Positions 6,427 to 59,793 of a stretch of DNA of 64,000 nucleotides are shown here, piece after piece. The position numbers and the translations under genes were made by a program. Source of the stretch: Gemmatimonadetes bacterium SCN 70-22 (GTDB taxonomy: Bacteria > Gemmatimonadota > Gemmatimonadetes > Gemmatimonadales > Gemmatimonadaceae); the NCBI GenBank assembly GCA_001724275.1, contig MEDZ01000027.1, positions 1 through 64,000 of the forward strand, read 5' to 3'. The notes beneath the pieces were generated by a model. That model was given only the letters and a program-made list of their open reading frames with translations. It searched no databases and had not been told where the DNA came from. How positions within the stretch are numbered: position 1 is the first letter of the stretch; every line of letters begins with the position of its first letter.

Positions 6427-8874
6427 TCATCGTGGCACGTTGTCGATATCTCCTGTACGAACATCTATGACGACGATCCCATCTTTGGTCAAGCCGAAGA
6501 GCTTCACGGCGAGCGACGGATCGGAGGCGCGCTCCGCGGGAGTCGGAACCGCCGCGCGGAGAGGGCCATAGAGGTTCTCGCGGATCGGGATGCGTCCGCG
6601 CAGGCGGTAGCTGTACGTATCGACGATCTGGATCGACTTGTCGCCGGAGGCCACGAAGGCCACGCGGGCGGTGCTGTCGGCCGTGTTCTCGTCGATGTTG
6701 TTCGGGTGGAAGGCGATCCCTGCCCCCGACTGGAAGGTGGCGAACTTCCCCTGGAGGCGCAGCGACGAGTCGGCGAAGAAGGTTTCCACGCCGTGCACGC
6801 CGATGTTCGCGCTGTTCGCGTTGATGTCGATGCCGAACACCTTGTCCGACGCGTTGTTGGTGAGGTCGGCGACTTCTATCGGCGCGGAGTACTGCGCGCC
6901 GTTGGCGGGAGTCCCGCTCGGGTCGTAGACCATAAGGACGCGACCGGCACGATCGGGGGTGTGTCCCTCGCCGAAGGCGACGCGCCGGCGGTCACCACCC
7001 ACCGCCACGAAGTTCGTGTCGGGGAGGGCGAGCGAGGCGACGGCCAGGTCCTTCACCGCCTCCACGTTGCCGTTGATCGGACTCGATGTGAGGGCGGCCA
7101 CCGCGGCTTCGACGGTACCGGCGTTGACGCACACGGCGGTATTCGGTGACTGGCCAGGGGTGTGCTCGCAGATCACGATCTTGTCGGGGACACCGTTCTC
7201 CCCCTCGATCACGTCGACGAAGTCGGCGTTGAAGATGACGTAGTGGTTCTTGAGGAAGGCACCGTACTGCCAGATCTGGCGCGGTTCGGCACGCGTATCG
7301 AGGAAGTTGTCGATGCGGCGCAGCGTCCCGGGGGTGGCAGTGTTGGTCGGGCGCGTGGAGTAGTACAGCGCTCCCGACGCCGATTGGGCGATGTACTGCG
7401 GGCGGTCGGAGTAGTCGATCGGGGGCGGCACCTTGAACTTGAAGCCGCCGCTCGTTTCGTCCTTGGAGTAGGAGACGTCGTAGACGTACTCATTCGCCGT
7501 CTTGACGCGTCCCGTCTCCCGCTGCTCGACGAGCGAGACCATGGAGACGTTCGTTCCCGCCGAGTTGGCGACCAGCAGGAGCGAGTTGGAGTTGTCGATG
7601 ATCATTCCCCACGGCTGGGCGCCGACGGCGATGGCCGGGAGCTGCTGCAGCGTGGTGGAGTAGCTGAACGCCTCGACCTCGTTCTTGGTGAGGTTGGAGA
7701 CGAAGACACGGGTGCGCGCGGTGTCGACGGTGATGTCGGCGCCGAGGCTCCCTTCGGGGAGGGCGTAGGTAAGGCCGTAGGCGTACACGGTGGCGTCACG
7801 CTTGGCCAGGGTGTCGCTATTGACGGGGACGCTGGCCCCGGTGCTGACGGCGTAGCCGGTGCGTCCGGCGACGTCGGTGGCGTAGGCAGTGACGAAGAGC
7901 GCCTGGCCACGGAGGGCGACCGGGGCACGCCACGCCTTGCGGCGCGTGACCTGCTGGGCCGGTGTGGCCAGCGTGTCGGCCGAGCGATAGACCACCGTGC
8001 CGCTGGCATCCTTGGCGATGAAGCCGATGATGCGCACCAGCCCGTCGCTGTCGCGCGCCGAGATGTCGATGGAATCCGGCGCCTCGAGCCGCGCCGCCAC
8101 CGTCTGGTAGACGAGCGGAGGGAGGAGGTCCGGGCCGGCAGCCGCAACACGCACGACGATCGGCGTTCCACCGCCGCGCAGGCCGTCACGGTTCTCGGCG
8201 AACGGGGTGATGGTGATCGAGGCGCCGGCGGCGATGCCGTTCGGCACCTGGAACGAGTAGCTCACCGTGTCGCCCTTGGGATAGGGAACCGGGAAGAGCG
8301 TCGAGTCGGCCTTGGAGAAGCCGGGGGTGGTGGCGCGATAGCCCACCTTGGTGATGCCGGTGGAGTCGGCGATCCCGACATCGAACGTGTAGGTCCCGCC
8401 GACGATCACATTCGGCTGCGGCTGCACGATGGCGAGCCGCGGGACGTTGGGGTCGAAGGCGACGGCGTGCGCCTCGCTGGAGGCGGAGTTGCCGGCGCCG
8501 TCGGCCACCGACGAGCGGACGGTGATGGTCTGGCCGGGGCGAACCCCGGCGAGGGCGATGGTGAGCGTCCGGCTGTACGAGCTGGAGGCGCTCGGGAAGG
8601 CGGTCGAGTCGCGCCCCACGAGGACCGTGTCCGCGAAGACGCGGGTCACGACCCATTGGAGGGCGGCGTTGTCCTTCGCACTGACCGCGACCTGGAGTGG
8701 GACGCGCAGCGACACCGAGTCGGTGCCCTCGCTCCCCACCTTGCTCGCGATGGCCACGGTGAGCTCGGGGAGGATCTTGTCACTGGACGTCGACGCGATC
8801 TCCGTGCTCCCGCAGCCCGCGGCCAGGGCGGCCGCGAGCAGCGCCGGGGCGACGCGACGAATCATGGTCTTCAT
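6427..8874 (-). CDS. Large secreted lipoprotein with Ig-like and YncE-like propeller regions
   Basis: 815 residues. The N-terminus is a lipoprotein signal with lipobox LAAGC, Cys21 being the predicted lipidated residue. Residues of roughly 40-330 contain repeated beta-strand segments rich in Ser/Thr/Asp that look like Ig-like folds (for example VADGAGNSASSEAHAVAF). From about 360 onward, segments such as RVFVSNLTKNEVEAF and PWGMIIDNSNSLLLVANSAG resemble YncE/NHL propeller blades. It starts 19 nt after pilQ and is probably the last gene of the pilMNOPQ operon, which suggests an outer-membrane or surface accessory to the pilus, but no known pilus family was recognised. Confidence 0.65.
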   Translation of the reverse strand: MKTMIRRVAPALLAAALAAGCGSTEIASTSSDKILPELTVAIASKVGSEGTDSVSLRVPLQVAVSAKDNAALQWVVTRVFADTVLVGRDSTAFPSASSSYSRTLTIALAGVRPGQTITVRSSVADGAGNSASSEAHAVAFDPNVPRLAIVQPQPNVIVGGTYTFDVGIADSTGITKVGYRATTPGFSKADSTLFPVPYPKGDTVSYSFQVPNGIAAGASITITPFAENRDGLRGGGTPIVVRVAAAGPDLLPPLVYQTVAARLEAPDSIDISARDSDGLVRIIGFIAKDASGTVVYRSADTLATPAQQVTRRKAWRAPVALRGQALFVTAYATDVAGRTGYAVSTGASVPVNSDTLAKRDATVYAYGLTYALPEGSLGADITVDTARTRVFVSNLTKNEVEAFSYSTTLQQLPAIAVGAQPWGMIIDNSNSLLLVANSAGTNVSMVSLVEQRETGRVKTANEYVYDVSYSKDETSGGFKFKVPPPIDYSDRPQYIAQSASGALYYSTRPTNTATPGTLRRIDNFLDTRAEPRQIWQYGAFLKNHYVIFNADFVDVIEGENGVPDKIVICEHTPGQSPNTAVCVNAGTVEAAVAALTSSPINGNVEAVKDLAVASLALPDTNFVAVGGDRRRVAFGEGHTPDRAGRVLMVYDPSGTPANGAQYSAPIEVADLTNNASDKVFGIDINANSANIGVHGVETFFADSSLRLQGKFATFQSGAGIAFHPNNIDENTADSTARVAFVASGDKSIQIVDTYSYRLRGRIPIRENLYGPLRAAVPTPAERASDPSLAVKLFGLTKDGIVVIDVRTGDIDNVPR

Positions 8875-8893
8875 CGGTTAGGCTCCGGGTGAG

Positions 8894-10927
8894 TTACTTG
8901 CTGCTCCCATCGGGCGGGCGGACTGCGTCGCCCTCGTCGATGATGTGCGGCGTGATGAGGATGAGCAGGTCCTTCTTCTCCTCGCGGGTGTCGGTCTGCG
9001 AGAAGAGGCGGCCGATCAGCGGGAGCTCGGAGAGTATCGGGATCCCGGAGCGGTTCTTGGTGACCTGCGTCTGGGTAAGGCCGCCGATGACCGCCGTCTC
9101 GCCGTTGTTCACGAGGAGCTGCGTCTTGGCGTTGCGCTTGTCGATGATGAAGCCCAGGTCGCCGCCGACGATGCGGAGCTCCGACTGCTCGGCCTCCATC
9201 GTCATGCGGATCTGGCGATTGTTGGTGATGTGCGGGGTGACGGTCAGGATGATACCGGTCTCGCGGAACTGCACGTTGGCGCGGACCGGGGCACCGATCT
9301 GCGACACGCTTCCGGCGTCGATGACGCGGACCGGGGTTTCCTGGCCGACGAGGATGCGCGCCTGGCGGTTGTCGAGCGTGACGATGCTCGGCTCGGCCTG
9401 GATGTCGGAGAGCTGCGTCTCGCGGAGCGCGTCGAGGAACGACGTGAGCGAGTACTTGCCTAACGCGGTGGAGAAGATGAGGTTGAGCGCCGAGCCCTGC
9501 TTGTACTTGCGCTGGGCGTTGGAGACGCCGGCCAGGGCGTCACCGCCCAGCTCCACGCGCGAGTCGAACGTCCCCGGGCTGCTCTGCCCCTCGGGGATAC
9601 GGGGGAGGAGCGTGTTGAAGAAGGTGCCGTTCGAGCCCAGGTCGTAGGAGAGCCCCAGCTGCTCGATCTCGGTGCGCGAGACGGAGATGATCTTCGCCTT
9701 GAGGGCGACCTGCGGCGTGCGGACGTCGAGCCCCTTCACGTACTGCAGGAGGTCGGGGAGGCGCGACGTGACTTCGGTGACGATGAGCGAGTTGGTCCCG
9801 CTGTCGGCGGCGATCGAGCCGCGGACGATGCACCCCGGGGCCACGGCCGGCGCCCCGCCGCCCTGCGACGGCGGCGGCGCCGAGGCGCCGATCGGGCACT
9901 CCTTGTGGAGGAGCCCCTGCACCGTCGGCACCAGCGAGCTGGCGGCCACGTAGTTGATGTTCACCATCTGCGTGGTGACCGGCTCGCTGGCCTGCTTCTC
10001 GAGGATGTTCTTGTAGCTGTCGACCGTGATGATCCCCGAATCCTCCTGGCTGGCGGCCAGCCCCTGCGCGTCGAGGATCGCCTTGAGGGCGACGTCCCAC
10101 GGCTGGTCCTTGATCTCGGCGGTGATGAGCCCGGCGACGTCCTTGCCGACCACGATGGTGCGGCCGGAGAAGGTGGCGAAGCCCGCGATCACGTCACGGA
10201 TGTCGGCCTCGGACCAGGTCACGGTGATGCGCGGCTGCTGCGACTGCTGGCGCTGCTGGGCGGCGACGGCGTCGGGGGTGGCGCGCACGTCGGCCGGCTC
10301 GTCGGCCGCGGCCAGGCGCCGGACGGGGGCGGTGGCGCGCGCGATGACGGCGTCGACCGTCGCCGCCGAATCCTCGGCCGGCTTCTCGGGGAGCGGCGCG
10401 GGGGCGGCGACCGCCCCGTTGGAGACTTCGGTGGTCACCTCGCGAGGGGCAACCGCCTCGGCGAGCATGGCGCCCGACGAGTGCCAGGCGGCGAACGAGG
10501 CGTCTCCCTTGATGGCGACGCGGATCTCGCCCTCGCCGCGCGTCACCTTGTAGGCGCGCGGCCCGTCGACATCGAGCACGATGCGCACGACGTCGGCGCG
10601 GTACTGCGAGGTGCGGATGTTGGTGATGCCACCGCGACGGACGCGGTCATAGGCGTCGCCCAGCGCGCCGAGACGGGCGCCGGCGAGGTCGATGACGATG
10701 CGGTGCGGCGAGGGGACGGTGAAGTCCTGGACCGCCACCTGTCCCGAGACCGCGATGACGACTTCGGCCTGCCCCTGTCCGGGGACGAGCGCGAGCGCCG
10801 TCACCGCGCTCGCGGCGTTGGTCGGCGCGAGCGCGACCGGAGACCCGATGTGCGCGGCGCGCGCGGTCGACGCGCCGACGATCAGCGCGACGGCCGGCAG
10901 TGCGGCCAGCGTCCAGACTCGCCTCAT
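8894..10927 (-). CDS. pilQ: PilQ, type IV pilus secretin
   Basis: Outer-membrane channel through which the pilus is extruded. 677 residues with a signal peptide (cleavage near STARA). An AMIN domain occupies about 45-130 (PSPHRIVIDLAGARL), an STN/N0 domain about 230-305 (WSEADIRDVIAGFATFSGRTI), then an N1 module and the secretin barrel, ending in the conserved GGLTQTQVTKNRSGIPILSE and LLILITPHII. Between these modules is a Pro/Ala-rich linker. It overlaps pilP by 4 nt (ATGA). A CGTTAGGC octamer encodes the TALGKY segment. Confidence 0.95.
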   Translation of the reverse strand: MRRVWTLAALPAVALIVGASTARAAHIGSPVALAPTNAASAVTALALVPGQGQAEVVIAVSGQVAVQDFTVPSPHRIVIDLAGARLGALGDAYDRVRRGGITNIRTSQYRADVVRIVLDVDGPRAYKVTRGEGEIRVAIKGDASFAAWHSSGAMLAEAVAPREVTTEVSNGAVAAPAPLPEKPAEDSAATVDAVIARATAPVRRLAAADEPADVRATPDAVAAQQRQQSQQPRITVTWSEADIRDVIAGFATFSGRTIVVGKDVAGLITAEIKDQPWDVALKAILDAQGLAASQEDSGIITVDSYKNILEKQASEPVTTQMVNINYVAASSLVPTVQGLLHKECPIGASAPPPSQGGGAPAVAPGCIVRGSIAADSGTNSLIVTEVTSRLPDLLQYVKGLDVRTPQVALKAKIISVSRTEIEQLGLSYDLGSNGTFFNTLLPRIPEGQSSPGTFDSRVELGGDALAGVSNAQRKYKQGSALNLIFSTALGKYSLTSFLDALRETQLSDIQAEPSIVTLDNRQARILVGQETPVRVIDAGSVSQIGAPVRANVQFRETGIILTVTPHITNNRQIRMTMEAEQSELRIVGGDLGFIIDKRNAKTQLLVNNGETAVIGGLTQTQVTKNRSGIPILSELPLIGRLFSQTDTREEKKDLLILITPHIIDEGDAVRPPDGSSK

Positions 10928-47845: not shown

Positions 47846-48271
47846 ATGGTCCTGCTCGATGTCAACGTGCTCGTCTCCGCCATGCGCGAGGACGCCCCTC
47901 GGCACGAGGTGCTCAAGGCTTACGTCGAGCAACTGCGCCGCGCCCCCGAACCGTTCGGCGTCAGTGAGCTGGTGCTGAGCGGCGTGCTTCGCGTGCTCAC
48001 CCATCCGCGCGTCTTCGTCCCCCCGACTCCCGCCCCCGTCGCCCGCGCGTGGGTCGATGCACTTCGCGCCACACCGAACATCGTGATCGTGGCCCCCGGC
48101 CCGCGCCACTGGGACATCTTTGTCGGGCTGCTCGAGAAATCTTCGGCCATCGGCAACCTGGTCGCCGACGCCTGGCACGCGGCCCTTGCCATCGAGCACG
48201 GATGCGAGTGGATCTCGGACGACGCCGACTTCGCACGCTTTCCGGGGCTTCGGTGGCGTCGCCCCGGGTGA
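47846..48271 (+). CDS. PIN-domain toxin (VapC-like)
   Basis: 141 residues. PIN acidic residues are visible in VLLDVNVLVSAM (Asp5), EPFGVSELVLSG (Glu), LVADAWHAALAIEHG (Asp) and ISDDADFARFPGL (Asp pair), the expected four-acid Mg2+ site of this RNase family. The module 'TA system VapC' of the 'SELVLSGVLRVLTHPRVF' type is common in soil bacteria. It converges with the rhomboid gene by 19 nt. Confidence 0.88.
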   Translation: MVLLDVNVLVSAMREDAPRHEVLKAYVEQLRRAPEPFGVSELVLSGVLRVLTHPRVFVPPTPAPVARAWVDALRATPNIVIVAPGPRHWDIFVGLLEKSSAIGNLVADAWHAALAIEHGCEWISDDADFARFPGLRWRRPG

Positions 48272-49131: not shown

Positions 49132-50450
49132 GCGAGGGTGGGGTCAGCGGACGACTTCCCGCAACGAGCGGCAGTGGCCATCGGCGAGCGCGGGCGGCAG
49201 GACGCGTCATCGCCGCGTGCCGGGGAGCCTCGGAATGGCCGTGTATTGCGTCACGGCGTCGTCGCCCCTTCGCCTGCCGCCGGCTCGTTAGGCTTCGCCT
49301 GGGCTGGCGCGCATCGCTTCGGCCGTGTGTGGCAGAAGTCCGTGCGCTCGCCCTGCTGCATGCCTAGTCCACGCTTCCCTTCTCCCCAGCACTTCGTGTC
49401 CTTGCCTGAAACCGGGCGACAAAGGGACTGCCATCGGCAGCCTCTCCTGCGAGAACGAAACCGCCCGGTGCCGCTGCCACGAAGTCAGCGCGACGAGGTG
49501 GCTCCAGGGAGTATCGGTACGCCCCTGTCGTTCCGTCGTAGACGTCCAGGATGCGCGCATCTCCCCCATCACCTGATCGAAACAGCACCGCGAAGTCGGT
49601 CCCGAACGCGGCAGCGCTCTTGGTCGTCAATCTCGCCCCGCGAGCGAGTCGTTGAGCGCCACCACGACGGGTCTCGACGCCCGCGAGTGGGACGTTGGCT
49701 ATCCACGATGCGATCTTCACCCCTGACGGGCCCCAGAGAGCCAGGTGCGGTCCGAAGCTCATCGTCTGCAGGCACGTCTCGCTCTCCCCATTGTGAAAGA
49801 GCATCGTCTGGCGAAGCAAGAGGGGGATACGCGCTGCATCTGCCCATGGCAGCGTCCAACTGCGTACGATGCGCCCCGCCCAATCGACTTCCACGAGCTC
49901 ACGGCCGGCCGACAACGACGTGATGAGTACAGTCGAATCACGAGCGCACACGCCAAGCGGAGACGAACCGAGCGGGAAGGCGACTTCGTGCGTCATCTCA
50001 CCGGACTCGGTGTATCGCCGAATGCGCCGGTTCCCGCCGTCGATCATCACGAACCCACCGGTGCGCAGAGGGGACAGCTGGACTACCGCGCCGATTTCAC
50101 CCGGCCCACGCCCCGGTCGCCCTGTTCGCCAGCGCTCACGTCCAGTCTCTGGATCGAGGCCGACGATTCGACGCCGCCCCGCATCCGCCACGACGACATG
50201 CTTCTGCGTCGCGATCAGCGCCACTATGGCGTAGAACGTCGTGTCGGCCTCCGTCCCCCCGACTTCCCACAGTTGCACCCATCGACTAGCGCGGAGCCGC
50301 CGCTGCCGGGCCGAATCGAGTGGGGATGTGCTCGCGACCTCGTTGGCCGGCGTCACTGCGGCCTGCCAAGCGGTCGCACCGGACTGCGCCATGGAGTTGA
50401 CCCGATTTGATGGACGCCGATCGACCCTTACCTTGGGGGGGAGGCAGTCC

Positions 50451-50780
50451 ATGAGCAAGCGCCGGAAGCCGGGCAGCGCCACGCCGCTTGAGCGGCGGAG
50501 CTCCACGGACGAGTTCAAGCAGGAAGCCGTCCGCCGGCTGCATGAGCGGCGCGCGGAGGGCGGGACCTTGGCCGACGTGGCGCGCGAGCTGGATCTCGGA
50601 GACAATCTGCTCCGGGGCTGGGCCCAGCGGTTCACCGCGTCGGACGAGACGCGGGCGGCGCGACTGATCGAGACGCCCGAGCAAGAGCTGCGGCGGCTGC
50701 GGCGGGAGGTCGCGACCCTGAAGCAGGAGCGGGAGTTCGCAAACAAAGTCGCGGTGTACTTCGCGAAGGAGTCGCGGTGA
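50451..50780 (+). CDS. IS3-family OrfA
   Basis: 109 residues. HTH transposase_8 type: RRSSTDEFKQEAVRRLHERRAEGG, TLADVARELDLGDNLLRGW, then a leucine-zipper-like coiled coil (QELRRLRREVATLKQEREF). OrfB begins at the GTGA overlapping its stop, the normal frameshifting arrangement. Intact here but without a full partner. Confidence 0.88.
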   Translation: MSKRRKPGSATPLERRSSTDEFKQEAVRRLHERRAEGGTLADVARELDLGDNLLRGWAQRFTASDETRAARLIETPEQELRRLRREVATLKQEREFANKVAVYFAKESR

Positions 50781-51133
50781 TTGACGCCCTGATCGCTCGC
50801 CACCTGGGCGAGTATTCGCTGCGACTCATGTGTCGGGTGCTCAAGGGCATGCGGGTGAGCACGAAGCGCGTCGCCCGGGTGATGCGCGAAGACGGACTTG
50901 CGGCGCGGCGGCCGCGCAGCGTCCGCACGACCGACTCGACACACGCGCATCCCACGGCCCCACACCTTCTGGAGCGGCGGTTCGACGTGAAGGGCGTCGG
51001 CGTGCATCAGGTCTGGGTCAGTGACATCACATACGTGCCGACCGACGAGGGCTGACTCTCTCTCGCCGTGGTGCTCGCTCTCGCCTCGCGGCGCGTGATC
51101 GGCTGGGCCATGCGGGACACCTTGGACGCCGCG
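50777..51133 (+). pseudogene. IS3-family OrfB, nonsense mutation and truncation
   Basis: Reads VIDALIARHLGEYSLRLMCRVLKG ... VHQVWVSDITYVPTDEG, containing the first catalytic Asp, then a TGA at 51053-51055 where TGG (Trp) is expected in EGWL. The same frame continues LSLAVVLALASRRVIGWAMRDTLDAA, then stops matching at about 51133. Only the first half of the rve domain is present; the second Asp and the Glu are missing. Dead copy. Confidence 0.85.
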
Positions 51134-51444
51134 GGCGCGCGCCGCCTGTTCGGCCGCCAGACACTCTGTGGCCGGCGCCGGCGCCTGCGCCTCGAGCTCC
51201 GATGCCCCGACTGGTCCCCACAGCGCGCTCCCGCCGAATGCCAGCGCCACGAGTAGTAGGGGACGTCTCATGATGCCGCTCCTCTCAGAAATAGTTGAAG
51301 AGCAAGCACCCGCCGAGCGTCACATTTGTGACGTAGCTGCGCGTGCTGTCGTTTTTCGGAACACCCACCGCTCGCCGGTGCGACGACCAGGAGTGATCGC
51401 CGCCTATTGATGACGCCCGACACGATATCACTTCCGGAAGACGG

Positions 51445-53925: not shown

Positions 53926-55077
53926 TTATCGCGGCACACCATCACTCGCGCCCTGCCTCTGCCAGAGTACCAAGCGTGCTCCCCCCTCTCGGTCACGCTC
54001 GACCGACAAGTATCTCGAGTCGGATTCGAAGATCGCGGGAAAGCCACGAGTCGGCAGCGAGTCCGTGCGATCCCCTGCGTGGCGATACCCCGTGATTGCA
54101 CCGGATGACCCGACAGAGAGTCGTGTCCAGACTTGGCCGGAAGGGGAGACCGCCACCGCGGCGACGAGTGGTCGTTCGGGCGCCATGCCGCGCTGCCGTA
54201 GCGCATCTCGCGCCGATAGCGTGCACTCGGCCATCGGGGTGCGCACACTGTAGCCGATCGGCAATTGAAGCGCAGCGGAATCCGACGCCTGCAGTCGCGC
54301 CAGCGGGAGTGAGTAGACCACACTATCACCACCCTCCGCATCCCATGACACCACGTGATAATCCGCCCCGGTGACGAAGGCCACCCTCGTCCCGCTCGCG
54401 TTCCATCGGATAGTCGGCCAGAATACCGGGGGCTCTGGAGGCAACTCCACGCGGCAGGGCATCATGATCGGGCGTGTCGTTGCGACCGGCGTGCGCGCGA
54501 GGAGCTGTGCCTCACGTCCACGCCGGATGTACAGGGCTTCCGCTCGGTGTCCAGGGGAGTGCTCGATGACCGAGTAGACCCACTCGCCGCTCGTCAGCTG
54601 GCGCAGTCCAGTCAGCAGGCTCGGGGGGACGCCGAGCAGGGTGTCGAGCGGAAGGTCTCCGAGCGCACGCCCCGTAGTGTCGAAGGTCACCAGCGCCCGT
54701 TTCTGGCCATCGACGACCCCAATGCCCTGACGGCTCCGGACCAGCATCTGCGGGAACTGTAGTTCCCCCGGCGCTCCCCCTCCGCGTGCGATCGTCCTGA
54801 CTTCCCGACCCGTCGTGTCGAGCACGACGATACGTTTGGCGCGATAGTCGAGGAACGCGAACGCTCCGTCGGCCCACCGCACGCCGGCGTATCCTTCCTC
54901 GATGCCTTCGAGCACGAACGACGCATTGTCGTCGGTCGCGAGAACTGCCACGGCCCGCCACGGTTCCGCTCCCCGTGGCTCCACGTGCGTCGTCTCGCGC
55001 TGGCAGCCCACCGTGGCCGCCACGCCAACGGCCAGTTGCCACCATGCTGACGCCTTCGCACGGCGAGATGCCTTCAT
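53926..55077 (-). CDS. Six-bladed beta-propeller lipoprotein E
   Basis: 383 residues, ATG at 55077, one nucleotide after the stop of the thioredoxin-like gene. Signal with lipobox ATVGC. Blades include FAFLDYRAKRIVVLDTTGREVRTIARGGGAPGELQFP, a variant of the family signature (APGELQFP), and IGVVDGQKRALVTFD. Several cysteines are present in the mature protein (MMPCRVEL, MAECTL). Third member of the tight operon with the cysteine-rich peptide. Confidence 0.8.
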   Translation of the reverse strand: MKASRRAKASAWWQLAVGVAATVGCQRETTHVEPRGAEPWRAVAVLATDDNASFVLEGIEEGYAGVRWADGAFAFLDYRAKRIVVLDTTGREVRTIARGGGAPGELQFPQMLVRSRQGIGVVDGQKRALVTFDTTGRALGDLPLDTLLGVPPSLLTGLRQLTSGEWVYSVIEHSPGHRAEALYIRRGREAQLLARTPVATTRPIMMPCRVELPPEPPVFWPTIRWNASGTRVAFVTGADYHVVSWDAEGGDSVVYSLPLARLQASDSAALQLPIGYSVRTPMAECTLSARDALRQRGMAPERPLVAAVAVSPSGQVWTRLSVGSSGAITGYRHAGDRTDSLPTRGFPAIFESDSRYLSVERDREGGARLVLWQRQGASDGVPR

Positions 55078-55078
55078 C

Positions 55079-55585
55079 TCAGAATGGCGTTGTCGTCAAG
55101 GATTCGACTTGCTGCCAGAAACGTTTGCGCACACTGGATTGGTGAAGCCCTCCTCGCCACACGCCGGTGATGGTGCCCTTCACGACGAGCACTGTTACCG
55201 GTGTGCCGCCTGAGACCGCCTCCTGCAGTAGCGCGCCCGAGGTATCCATGCAGACAGGCCGCTGTGTCTGGCGCATCAGTGCCGCCAAGGCCTCCACTGC
55301 TCTCCCTCTCGGCGCGTACAGGCCGACCCGATGCCGCAGTTCGTCTGCGACCTCGCCATGCACGTCGAACGCGGCAAGATGGTCCCGGCAGTAGTAGCAG
55401 TCCGCGGCGGAGACCACCGTGAAGAGCTCTGCTGGGGGCGTCATCCCGTCGCCATGCCGCGCCGCAGCGCAGTCGCCGCCCACGCTCCACTGCTGCCCAA
55501 CGGTGAGGTGCTTCCCGGGTGAGCGCTCGTGCCCTCCGCAAGCGCCGAACAACAGGGCTATGAGCCACACGCCCCCAGACTTCAC
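55079..55585 (-). CDS. Thioredoxin-fold lipoprotein with CYYC motif
   Basis: 168 residues from a GTG at 55585 that overlaps the stop of the upstream propeller (GTGA). Lipoprotein signal VKSGGVWLIALLFGAC with Cys16 as lipobox Cys. The redox motif is FTVVSAADCYYCRDHLAAF (Cys63-x-x-Cys66), a strand-helix join typical of thioredoxins. A later segment GGTPVTVLVVKGTITGVWRG has the expected cis-Pro (TP) strand. So it is a membrane-tethered periplasmic thiol-disulfide protein. Its position between two propeller genes and downstream of a four-cysteine secreted peptide suggests it oxidises, reduces or isomerises that peptide or the propellers. Confidence 0.78.
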   Translation of the reverse strand: MKSGGVWLIALLFGACGGHERSPGKHLTVGQQWSVGGDCAAARHGDGMTPPAELFTVVSAADCYYCRDHLAAFDVHGEVADELRHRVGLYAPRGRAVEALAALMRQTQRPVCMDTSGALLQEAVSGGTPVTVLVVKGTITGVWRGGLHQSSVRKRFWQQVESLTTTPF

Positions 55586-56628
55586 AAGACGCCGTCGACA
55601 ATGGTGGACACCCGAAGCACGATAGGCGCGCCGAGCGCCTGTCTGGCGACGACCGTGACGACAGAATCTCCGAGCACTCCGAGAACACGCTCCTCGCCGG
55701 CGGCCGTCGCACATACCGCTCGTCCATCGTCTCGACACCTTAACACCGCAAAGCGATCGCGACCCAACGCTGCATCATACGTCGCTCCTGCGAGCGTCAG
55801 GGTCGACCCCGACCGCCACAGCCCGGTCCACTCAACAGTCTTGGCGCGAAAGTGATTGATGCTTAACAGATCCATCGACATGCGCGCGTCTTCTCTCATC
55901 CGCCACCCAGGTAGGGGCACACGCCGTCGCTCTTCCAGTGAGGGCGCCATGACGATCACTTCCCCCGACAACGGTTGCTTGCAGAAGACTTCGTCCGCGC
56001 TCACGACCGCCGCAAATGAGCGGAAGATCGCGGTCATTCCGCGCGCCCTCACGCTTGCGCCATACCGCGGGTCTGCTCGACACCCCCTCCGTTGCTCCTG
56101 TCCTTGCAGATCGAAGTACCGCACAACCAGTGCAGAATCCACCTCGAACATCGAATCCGCCTCGGTAGTGGCAACCACATAGCCATCCGAGACCCTCTGA
56201 ACGCTCGTAACCGGCGTCTCGATCTCCAGGCGGGCAACCTTCCGCGCAATGCCTCGCTCATCGATACTCCAGATGCCCTCGTTCCCGTCGACTTCAGCGA
56301 CAATGAGCGTGTCACCAAACCACGAGAGCGCATTCGGCTGCCGCACCCGTCCCTCGATACCGCCGCCGAATGGTACACGCCAGCGCAGCCTCCCGCCGGT
56401 GGTGTAGCCGTAGAGTTGGCGACTGGCGTTATCGACGATTGCGATACCTGCATCCCCGACCGCCGCATATGTGATGTCGCCGGGGGACTCCGACGTATCG
56501 CGTCCGAGCGACAAGGTCCTCTCGGTTGCCAAGGCAGCAGGCATCGCACGTGGCGCGGGTGCGTCCTTGCTGCAACCGGCACCAAGCGCGGCGATCCAGA
56601 CGATCATCCGCCCTCGCCTACCGCTCAT
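55582..56628 (-). CDS. Six-bladed beta-propeller-like lipoprotein F
   Basis: 348 residues, ATG at 56628. Lipobox LGAGC (IVWIAALGAGC). Blades: GIAIVDNASRQLYGYTTGGRLRWRVPFGGG, DTLIVAEVDGNEGIWSIDERG. The family signature is replaced by GGGIEGRVRQPNAL, so this member is divergent. Mature cysteines occur in RRGCRAD, EVFCKQ, LRCRDD, VCATA. It lies 63 nt downstream of the peptide gene and overlaps the thioredoxin-like gene. Confidence 0.78.
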   Translation of the reverse strand: MSGRRGRMIVWIAALGAGCSKDAPAPRAMPAALATERTLSLGRDTSESPGDITYAAVGDAGIAIVDNASRQLYGYTTGGRLRWRVPFGGGIEGRVRQPNALSWFGDTLIVAEVDGNEGIWSIDERGIARKVARLEIETPVTSVQRVSDGYVVATTEADSMFEVDSALVVRYFDLQGQEQRRGCRADPRYGASVRARGMTAIFRSFAAVVSADEVFCKQPLSGEVIVMAPSLEERRRVPLPGWRMREDARMSMDLLSINHFRAKTVEWTGLWRSGSTLTLAGATYDAALGRDRFAVLRCRDDGRAVCATAAGEERVLGVLGDSVVTVVARQALGAPIVLRVSTIVDGVL

Positions 56629-56691
56629 TCGCTACCATGCGCGACACAGCTCCAAGGTTCGCATGCGTCGTCTCCATTGCCCGCACACTGC

Positions 56692-56865
56692 TCACTGAGG
56701 TTTCGGGCAGACGACGCAATTGATACCAGGGTCGTTGGTGCATGTCACGCTGTTTCCGTTCCAGTACCCGTAGTAACTCTTACAGTCCGGCTGAGCGGGC
56801 GCATTGACCGCAACCGCCAGTATCGTCAGTCCGATCATCACGGAGACGGGTGCCATTCGCATCAT
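56692..56865 (-). CDS. Secreted four-cysteine mini-protein
   Basis: 57 residues, not previously delimited because it is very short. ATG ATG at 56865/56862 with an ideal Shine-Dalgarno AAGGAGGAACG just upstream. The signal peptide is MMRMAPVSVMIGLTILAVAV followed by NAPAQ, cleavage predicted near APA-Q. The mature peptide of about 33 residues is Tyr/Trp/Asn-rich (SYYGYWNGNSV) with cysteines at 28, 42, 50 and 53 in the pattern C-x13-C-x7-C-x2-C, ending CVVCPKPQ. Two disulfides are possible. It lies first in a minus-strand operon with two propeller lipoproteins and a thioredoxin-like lipoprotein. No family recognised. Ideal start, clear signal and cysteine pattern make it very probably real. Confidence 0.82.
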   Translation of the reverse strand: MMRMAPVSVMIGLTILAVAVNAPAQPDCKSYYGYWNGNSVTCTNDPGINCVVCPKPQ

Positions 56866-56933
56866 CGTTCCTCCTTTTCGTTGGATGCACGATATGGTTT
56901 GCCATCGTTTTAGACGGGTCGCGTACCATTCTG

Positions 56934-57305: not shown

Positions 57306-58425
57306 TTAGGCTGCCTGTCGGCGGCGGAGGATGTTCTTCACGTTGACGCTGGGGGAGGCGGGAATGATGTAGCGGCGCTTCGCCCAGACATCGTTGCGGT
57401 CGGCGGCGAGCGCGGTCACGAGGCGGAGATAACTGGCCTCGTTGGGGAAGATGCGGATGAAGCGGGTGCGGCGCCGGATCTCCTCGCGTTCGCGTTCGAG
57501 GGCGTTGGTCGTGCGCAGGCGGCGCCGGGCTCCGGACTCCGTGAGCACGTAGAACCCCAGGGTGTCGCCCAGGGTGTCGCCCAGCGTCTCTTCCAGCCAG
57601 GCGGCCACGGCGGGCAGCGCACGGCGCAGGGTCTGGCTCAGCGCGTGCCCGCGCTGCTCGGCCGTCGCGCGGGTCGGGGCGGCCCACACATCCCGCAACG
57701 CCGCGACCAAGGCTTCCTGCCGCGCCGCTGTGCTCACCCGGCTGAGGGCGTTCCACAGGTAGTGCACCTGGCAGCGCCGAGGCACCGCGTCGGGGACGTG
57801 CCGTTGCACCGCCGCCTTGAGCCCCGCATGCTCGTCGCTCACCACGTAGTGCACGCCGTGCAGGTCGCGCTGGTGCAGGTCCCGGAACACCCGGCTCCAC
57901 ACCGGTCCGCTCCCCGCGTTGCCGACCCAGAAGCCGAGATATTCGCGATGCCGTTCGCGCCGACGCCCAGCACCCAGAGCACGGCCGTCGACAGGACCTG
58001 GCCTTCGCGACGGATCCGTTCATAGTGGGCGTCGATGATGAGCTGCGGATACGCCTGCGCATCCAGTCGGCGCGCGCGCCAGCCGGCCAGCGTGCCATCG
58101 AGTTGTTTGGTCGCCCAACTGACCGTGCTGGCCCTCACCGTCTCGCCGCACAGCGTCTCCACCAATTGGCGCACCTTCCGGGTCGAGACGCCCTGCAGAT
58201 CGCACTCGGCGAGCGTGCGCACCAGCGCTTGCTCATGGCGCTGGTAGCGCGCGAAGACGGTGGCTCGAACAGGCGGGCCCGGTCGCGGGGGACCTGCAGC
58301 GCCAGATTGCCCACGCGTGTGACGAGCGTGCGTGGTCGCGTCCCGTTGCTCACACCTGCCCGCGCGGCCGTGCGCTCGAACGGGGCGGCGCCGAGAAGGC
58401 GGGTGAACTCGTCATGGAGCGTCTA
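57306..58425 (-). mobile_element. IS256-family transposase remnant with two frameshifts
   Basis: Three frames together spell one IS256/mutator-type transposase: an N-terminal part from about 58425 (LHDEFTRLLGAAPFERTAARAG ... LVTRVGNLALQVPRDR), a middle frame (VRTLAECDLQGVSTRKVRQLVETLCG ... LIIDAHYERIR, first Asp) and the last frame from about 57902 (VVSDEHAGLKAAV, second Asp; ALEREREEIRRRTR, Glu). Frameshifts lie near 58215-58265 and 57900-57925. The start codon is not obvious. The stop is part of a CGTTAGGC octamer at 57304-57311. Dead copy. Confidence 0.88.
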
Positions 58426-58855
58426 ACGGAGCATCGTCTGCCGCACCGTCCGGAGCAGATGGACGGTGGCCGTTTCGTCTTCTACCAACGTAACAGCTCC
58501 GTCCTCCGAACAACACACATCGAAGCACGCGACTCGTTGCCCAGCCTGCTGTCGCAAAGTTGACGCAACCCCGCGCTTGCCTCGGCGCCAGGTCGCGCGA
58601 ACCTTTGGCATCGCGGATGATGTATTCGCGTACGACGAGGCCCGCCCCTGGAGCGGCAGCCTTGCGCGAGTGAACGAGGAGCCACCGCATCCGGCGTACA
58701 CCCTTGACCTCCGCTCGGCGATGACACAGACCGTTCGCGTCCACGCACGCGCCGCGATCACGACGTCGCTGCTGGCACTGACCGACACACTGCCGGCCGT
58801 GTCCGTCCTTACGGCGCAGCACGCACCGATCGTCCCGATGCGTAAACCACCTCGC
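58426..58855. other. Stretch without a recognisable gene
   Basis: Open frames on both strands have no signal peptide, domain or start site I can support. It may hold decayed 5' sequence of the following propeller gene, whose signal peptide is missing. Confidence 0.5.
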
Positions 58856-59793
58856 ATGCAAGAGTCCACCCAACTGGTACAGCGCATCCGCATCCGCTCG
58901 CTGTCCGGCGACGCGGATGCGTTCGGAAGCATCACCTTCGCCGCGTTACGCCGCAACCGCGAGATCGTGGTCGCCGACGACCAGACACATCGCGTCAGCG
59001 TATTCGGCCCGGATGGAAAGCTGAAGCGGCATCTCGGCGGACGCGGACAAGGTCCCGGGGAGTTCGAGCTCCATGGCTGATCGCAGCCCTCGCCGGCGAC
59101 AGCCTCGCCGTATGGGACGCTGCCCTGGCTCGGGTCACCGTGTTCTCACCTGCTCTCACCTGCGTACGTTCGTTCGCGGTTCCTCCGATGTGGGCGGTCA
59201 ACAGCCTGCGCGAATTGCCCGACGGCCGCCTTCTCATCAGTGCACTTGACGTTGCCACGCGCAAGACCCTGCATGTGATGTCGCGCGCCGGCACGCCGGT
59301 TCTGTCCTTCGGCGACGTTGCGATTCCACCAGACGTTGCACAGTACGCCACGAGTCTTCTGGGTGGCCGTGCACTCGTGCTCGACTCCTCCATCGTGCTC
59401 AGTCACAAGTCCCCGTTTCGCATCGACGTGTACGACCTTCGAGGACAACTTCTGCGTCGGTGCGAGGGGCGCGCACACGCGACCACGGAACCGCGCGCGG
59501 CCATCTCCCGCGATGGCGCATCCGTTTCGCTACAGTGGAAGAAATTCGTGCACTCGACCGGCTTCCTTCGAGGGCCCACGGCTGGCGAGGTCTGGAACGT
59601 GATCACGGATCAGACGAGCGGCCGTACGACCGTGCAAGCGGTCGACATCCACCGCTGCGCCATGCTGCGCGAGCGCAGCCTGCCGGTGCCGCTGTTCCTT
59701 AATAATGCCAGCGCCGATGAGGTCGTTGGGGTGCTGGAGTCGGACTTTCCGGAGGTGATCGTCCATCGGAGTGCAGGCCGTGCGCGCAGGTGA
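58856..59793 (+). pseudogene. Six-bladed beta-propeller G, frameshifted and lacking a signal peptide
   Basis: The first frame reads GSITFAALRRNREIVVADDQTHRVSVFGPDG and then the family signature GGRGQGPGEFEL, then stops at 59080. Adding one C in CTCCATGG (about 59071-59074) restores GPGEFELPWLIAALAGDS and the sense runs on through VWDAALARVTVFSP to 59793. So a single base is missing exactly at the signature proline. No signal peptide precedes it; the start given is the nearest in-frame ATG. Probably a decayed member beside the IS256 remnant. Confidence 0.72.

Follow-up and report, generated by a model that had tools for sequence, protein, structure and literature searches.

A rare envelope gene cassette in Gemmatimonadota predicted to link an exported cysteine peptide with a thioredoxin-like lipoprotein and a propeller lipoprotein

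Genome sequences of Gemmatimonadota contain a small, rare and patchily distributed set of predicted envelope genes, whose conserved core comprises a short exported cysteine peptide, a beta-propeller lipoprotein of a distinct clade (propeller F) and a thioredoxin-like lipoprotein. The set was recognized in a stretch of 64,000 nucleotides from Gemmatimonadetes bacterium SCN 70-22 (positions 1 to 64,000 of contig MEDZ01000027.1), hereafter the window. In the reading that we favour, with a probability of about 0.5, the peptide would leave the cytoplasm via the Sec route and be cut back to some 30-45 residues, and the thioredoxin-fold lipoprotein encoded alongside, as its dedicated partner, would oxidise, shuffle or reduce the cysteines of the peptide. 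The F-type propeller lipoprotein, which is translationally coupled to the thioredoxin gene, would most likely dock the peptide, judging from gene order only, and peptide made in excess would be released. The features of the window that bear on this reading are the following.

56870..56876, minus strand: Shine-Dalgarno sequence AAGGAGG of the peptide gene
56692..56865, minus strand: gene for a secreted cysteine peptide, 57 codons, with relatives in genomes G030, G033, G085 (two), G137 and G197 (two)
about 56695-56793, minus strand: predicted mature part of the peptide, about 33 amino acids, codons 25-57
56664..56718, minus strand: stem-loop that spans the peptide gene's 3' end with its stop codon, weak at this locus (z -1.0)
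55582..56628, minus strand: propeller F, a lipoprotein with lipobox LGAGC, distinct propeller clade
55079..55585, minus strand: thioredoxin-like lipoprotein with a GTG start and a CYYC motif
53926..55077, minus strand: propeller E, lipoprotein-like, paired with F in G029 and G054 and outside the peptide/thioredoxin core

The peptide gene lies directly upstream of F, which is followed by the gene for the CYYC thioredoxin-like protein and then by E. An earlier note on this DNA had described a 57-codon gene with a signal peptide, four cysteines and a Shine-Dalgarno sequence upstream of three genes joined by overlapping or 1-nt junctions, and the sequence confirms both points: the GTG start of the thioredoxin-like gene overlaps the stop codon of F (TTGTGA), and the ATG of E is found one base 3' of the thioredoxin stop (TGAGATG). 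A second ATG of the peptide gene, at 56862, has the better spacing to AAGGAGG. Third-position GC is 0.71 in this gene, similar to the 0.70-0.76 of the neighbouring genes. The encoded peptide has a hydrophobic signal sequence that ends near ...NAPAQ and cysteines at residues 28, 42, 50 and 53 (C-x13-C-x7-C-x2-C), and the thioredoxin-like protein has a lipobox-like FGAC, a D-CYYC motif and a T-P loop. All four proteins of the window score below the curated Pfam and NCBIfam cut-offs. A second copy of the peptide was not found in the window's own genome.

The propeller cluster of the window looks like an insertion-rich island. Immediately 5' of the peptide operon lies a Mutator-type transposase (57306-58222, minus strand), and at 50241-51055 (plus strand) a frame for an IS3-like transposase overlaps a propeller frame (49364-51271, minus strand). 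Another propeller gene (58466-59793, plus strand) is split into two frames (58466-59080 and 59140-59793) and is possibly disrupted, and a frame at 47846-48271 (plus strand) is putatively PIN-domain-like (VapC-type) as judged by eye.

The arrangement of peptide, propeller and thioredoxin, for which the earlier note had proposed a search of related genomes, is present in five others, and the proposal is not refuted. One or more peptides with an F-type propeller and the thioredoxin thus occur in at least six genomes of two families (that of the window, G030, G033, G085, G137 and G197); genome counts are lower bounds, since the first search pass scored limited candidates per genome. Initial searches used the thioredoxin and the peptide as separate single-sequence queries against 148 genomes of the family, and the first and third best foreign matches of the peptide, in G030 (3e-4) and G033 (0.002), each map about 2 kb or less from a thioredoxin match that ranks among the three best foreign ones. 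A thioredoxin profile identifies the genomes of the window, G030, G033, G085 and G137, at least five of 179 family genomes. Extended to 346 genomes of the phylum, it adds G197, a member of another family (6.6e-39), where a peptide profile built without the G197 sequence has a weak match (0.03) 370 bp from the thioredoxin gene. Two tandem peptides in G085 and a single one in G137 are encoded directly upstream of the F-type propeller and the thioredoxin, and the two peptides of G197 are located behind the thioredoxin gene. In that locus (L062, about 7720-7762, minus strand) a 19-bp perfect inverted repeat, a terminator-like strong hairpin, lies 3' of both peptides.

A thioredoxin scan of genome contigs matched G085 alone (JACVCD010000006.1, Gemmatimonadaceae), and searches of viral sequences and plasmids gave no match to the cassette. 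Open reading frames with a signal peptide and the pattern C.{8,18}C.{5,9}C.{2,3}C near the C-terminus are confined to cassette loci within about 0.5 Mb of loci (overlaps counted), and none occurs in 2.56 Mb of first-order Markov sequence modelled on the window. The regulators near the window copy and the G085 copy are unrelated. Several candidates were set aside: weak peptide matches (E 0.01-1) look like chance frames on individual inspection; weak thioredoxin matches in G104, G108, G129, G005, G040 and G103 are unconfirmed by the profile and were counted as noise; a match in G325 (about 1e-7) was not counted, as its neighbourhood (L063) is without the cassette; and G016 and G079 (1e-6 to 1e-8) were left out of the cassette count. 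Separately, G070 encodes an exported cysteine-rich frame of 77 amino acids with a strong Shine-Dalgarno sequence (L087, 7679-7912, minus strand) beside a propeller gene (8044-9150, plus strand), both between insertion sequences; it may represent a second peptide class.

The peptides of the phylum have up to four cysteines each. Those of G085 end in C-x3-C instead of C-x2-C, and those of G197 retain only the second and third cysteines (C-x6-C), the first and fourth being missing together. Thus, the precise fold does not appear to be conserved. The joint absence of C1 and C4, seen in one lineage, suggests a core disulfide C2-C3 and a second bond C1-C4. Two AlphaFold models, neither built from the G033 sequence, are too poor for a fold search (pLDDT 37 and 43). 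Pfam, NCBIfam and PADLOC contain no match to the peptide. NVEALA peptides (PF14055) of Bacteroidetes are likewise short, exported and said to neighbour propeller proteins; however, a kinship along the lines of the earlier note's comparison is not supported: none of six peptides matches PF14055 at E<=1 and the NVEALA motif is absent from all sequences. The comparisons support a conserved exported product. Four cysteines with a terminal C-x2-C could also form a Zn or Cu site in a metal-binding peptide that hands metal to the envelope or takes it from there, but with two cysteines in the G197 peptides and the C-x3-C spacing in G085 this is extremely unlikely.

Propeller F belongs to a clade of its own. 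The F-type profile gives E<1e-40 in seven family genomes, and the next best match, an ordinary propeller, gives 1e-13. The likeness to six-bladed beta-propeller lipoproteins of PF17170 (DUF5128) is such that the F orthologues of G085 (27.1 bits) and G197 (43.1 bits) exceed the Pfam cut-off of 22.9, while window E remains below it (16.7 bits) and window F has no match; in contrast to that family, the F-type proteins stand apart as a group in which four cysteines of the mature protein are invariant (C183, C216, C298 and C306). In G030 (L042, 6882-7439, plus strand) only the C-terminal half of F is encoded, with the four cysteines kept; F may therefore be dispensable in this genome. A transposon that carries TniB/TniQ-like genes lies upstream of the shortened gene. 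Further neighbours of the cassette are an outer-membrane barrel in G137 and an extra protein and a propeller in G085.

G029 and G054 encode F followed by an orthologue of E (1e-57), and both the peptide and the thioredoxin are absent from these loci. In an F tree (unrooted, small taxon set) the two genomes group with window F with supports of 1.0 and 0.957, which implies two or more events in which peptide and thioredoxin were acquired or lost as a pair. Propeller E was rejected as a core member: it is not related to F at the level that defines the F-type clade, and it accompanies F in a different subset of genomes. Of the arrangement in the earlier note, then, peptide, F and thioredoxin stand as the core by sequence comparison, and propeller E falls outside it.

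Peptide and thioredoxin occur together in six of six carrier genomes and are both missing from the two genomes with F and E only. Nothing argues more strongly for action of the thioredoxin on the peptide, and not on F, than their joint gains or losses. The thioredoxin-like lipoprotein might instead serve the four cysteines of F, with the peptide as an operon bystander, and both the invariance of these cysteines and the overlap of the F and thioredoxin genes would fit; yet G029 and G054 retain all four in the lack of the thioredoxin, and the peptide is missing there too, which makes F a quite improbable client. Since thioredoxin and peptide co-vary and the cysteines of F persist without both, the peptide, not the propeller, is likely the redox client. 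The earlier claim that the CYYC protein sets the disulfides of the peptide is strengthened to this extent: the co-presence and joint absence are best read as action of this protein on the cysteines of the peptide.

By sequence, the CYYC protein is a member of the thioredoxin fold family. Its profile matches solved structures, namely Etrx2 of S. pneumoniae (2yp6, 8.5e-5), BF1870 (3ewl), 2m72, StoA (3erw) and ResA (3c73); short local matches to designed Pizza propellers in the same search were ignored. One member also matches Redoxin (PF08534, 4e-6). D62-C63, C66 and T128-P129 are invariant in the six thioredoxin-like sequences, while the active site varies (CYYC, CSAC, CSTC), so that the direction of the redox reaction is not readable from it. 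The likeness to Etrx2, StoA, ResA and Redoxin lies in the fold family by profile, the CxxC motif, the Thr-Pro loop and the lipobox. In contrast to these proteins, the cassette thioredoxin forms its own clade below all curated cut-offs, carries additional conserved cysteines (C39 in almost every sequence as aligned, C112 in all six) and always adjoins the peptide. In the window, G033, G085, G137 and G197 its start codon either overlaps the stop codon of F or directly adjoins it.

The peptide gene of G033 (L043, about 9294-9451, minus strand) has one in-frame TGA exactly at the second cysteine; the frame is otherwise intact and keeps the x13, x7 and x2 spacings (in the peptide profile, C was entered at this position). 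G033 encodes a full-length SelB (377 bits), which is absent from four of the five other carriers (G030, G085, G137 and G197). The remaining one, the window's genome, has both tRNA-Sec (G000:C53:11180-11272, minus strand) and SelB (G000:C23:79688-81514, plus strand) and probably decodes UGA as selenocysteine. Selenocysteine at C2 is thus possible in the G033 peptide, with a recent mutation or an assembly error as equal rivals that would give the same picture. These observations bear on a fairly unlikely alternative, in which the peptide itself is a small redox carrier or mini-oxidoreductase exchanging electrons with the thioredoxin lipoprotein rather than a signal or an antagonist. Besides the TGA and SelB, the persistence of C2 and C3 as the only cysteines in G197 fits this alternative, but the G033 assembly (90% complete) yielded no tRNA-Sec (the best matches are tRNA-Ser), a hairpin about 30 nt after the TGA (5-bp stem, loop UGUC, z +0.9) is no stabler than shuffles, and the last motif, C-x2-C or C-x3-C, is unlike a redox motif. 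In a further reading, also fairly unlikely, the peptides would make up a class of redox peptides not described before, exported and paired with a lipid-anchored thioredoxin of their own, and in at least one natural member selenocysteine would replace the second cysteine; if true, the function would be that of a secreted peptide with thiol/selenol chemistry outside the cytoplasm.

The window stem-loop is matched in stability by 29 of 200 shuffles; the corresponding structures between peptide gene and F have z -2.7 in G033, -4.8 in G085 and -4.6 in G137 (16 bp). Partial termination or 3' protection at this site would yield more peptide than lipoprotein, and the position of the stem-loop between the peptide gene and the lipoprotein genes suggests that the peptide is made in excess, better in keeping with a product that is released than with a fixed subunit.

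The nearest working parallel, by analogy, is the sublancin 168 operon of Bacillus subtilis SPbeta (sunA-sunT-bdbA-sunS-bdbB), in which BdbB forms the two disulfides of the peptide (PMC6391423). Both systems have a short exported cysteine peptide encoded first, with a gene for a thiol-disulfide oxidoreductase, a linkage found here in six of six genomes. However, in the cassette the signal peptide is of the Sec type, the thioredoxin is lipid-anchored, propeller lipoproteins are present and the host is diderm; the cassette is without a glycosyltransferase and a dedicated peptidase-transporter, and antagonism is only a candidate activity for it. A bacteriocin-like antagonist, matured by the thioredoxin, with F or E as immunity protein and nearby ADOP permeases for export or protection, is an unlikely alternative for the cassette. 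Sublancin's need for an operon-encoded BdbB is in its favour (PMC6391423), as are the patchy distribution, the diverged peptide pairs of G085 and G197, the insertion sequences close to the copies in the window and in G030 and the stem-loop 3' of the peptide gene. In G030 and G033 the thioredoxin gene is immediately followed by an ADOP-type permease (MacB_PCD and FtsX; 30% identical, 4e-73), which points the same way, but this permease is absent from the window, G085, G137 and G197. Moreover, neither an immunity gene nor a SunT-type peptidase-containing ABC exporter was recognized among the neighbours scanned, the ADOP permeases of the two loci being ATPase-less, and PADLOC, plasmid and viral searches are all negative.

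Methylamine dehydrogenase operons combine a small disulfide-rich protein, a propeller and a thioredoxin-like protein (MauA, MauB and MauD), the same three kinds of protein as the cassette. This is a resemblance only: MauA is a tightly bound subunit far larger than the cassette peptide, and no MauE or MauG was seen in the cassette loci. Exported cysteine peptides that come with a thiol-disulfide enzyme of their own are a known kind of system, and what appears new here is the addition of propeller lipoproteins and the setting in a diderm phylum.

To our knowledge, few envelope systems have been worked out in Gemmatimonadota. A guess from one genome has become a defined, testable gene family, in which a short exported peptide is genetically linked to a redox partner. 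That peptide and thioredoxin are present together and absent together hints at the client of the enzyme, and the natural variants, with C2 and C3 only or with TGA at C2, are ready probes for which disulfide matters.
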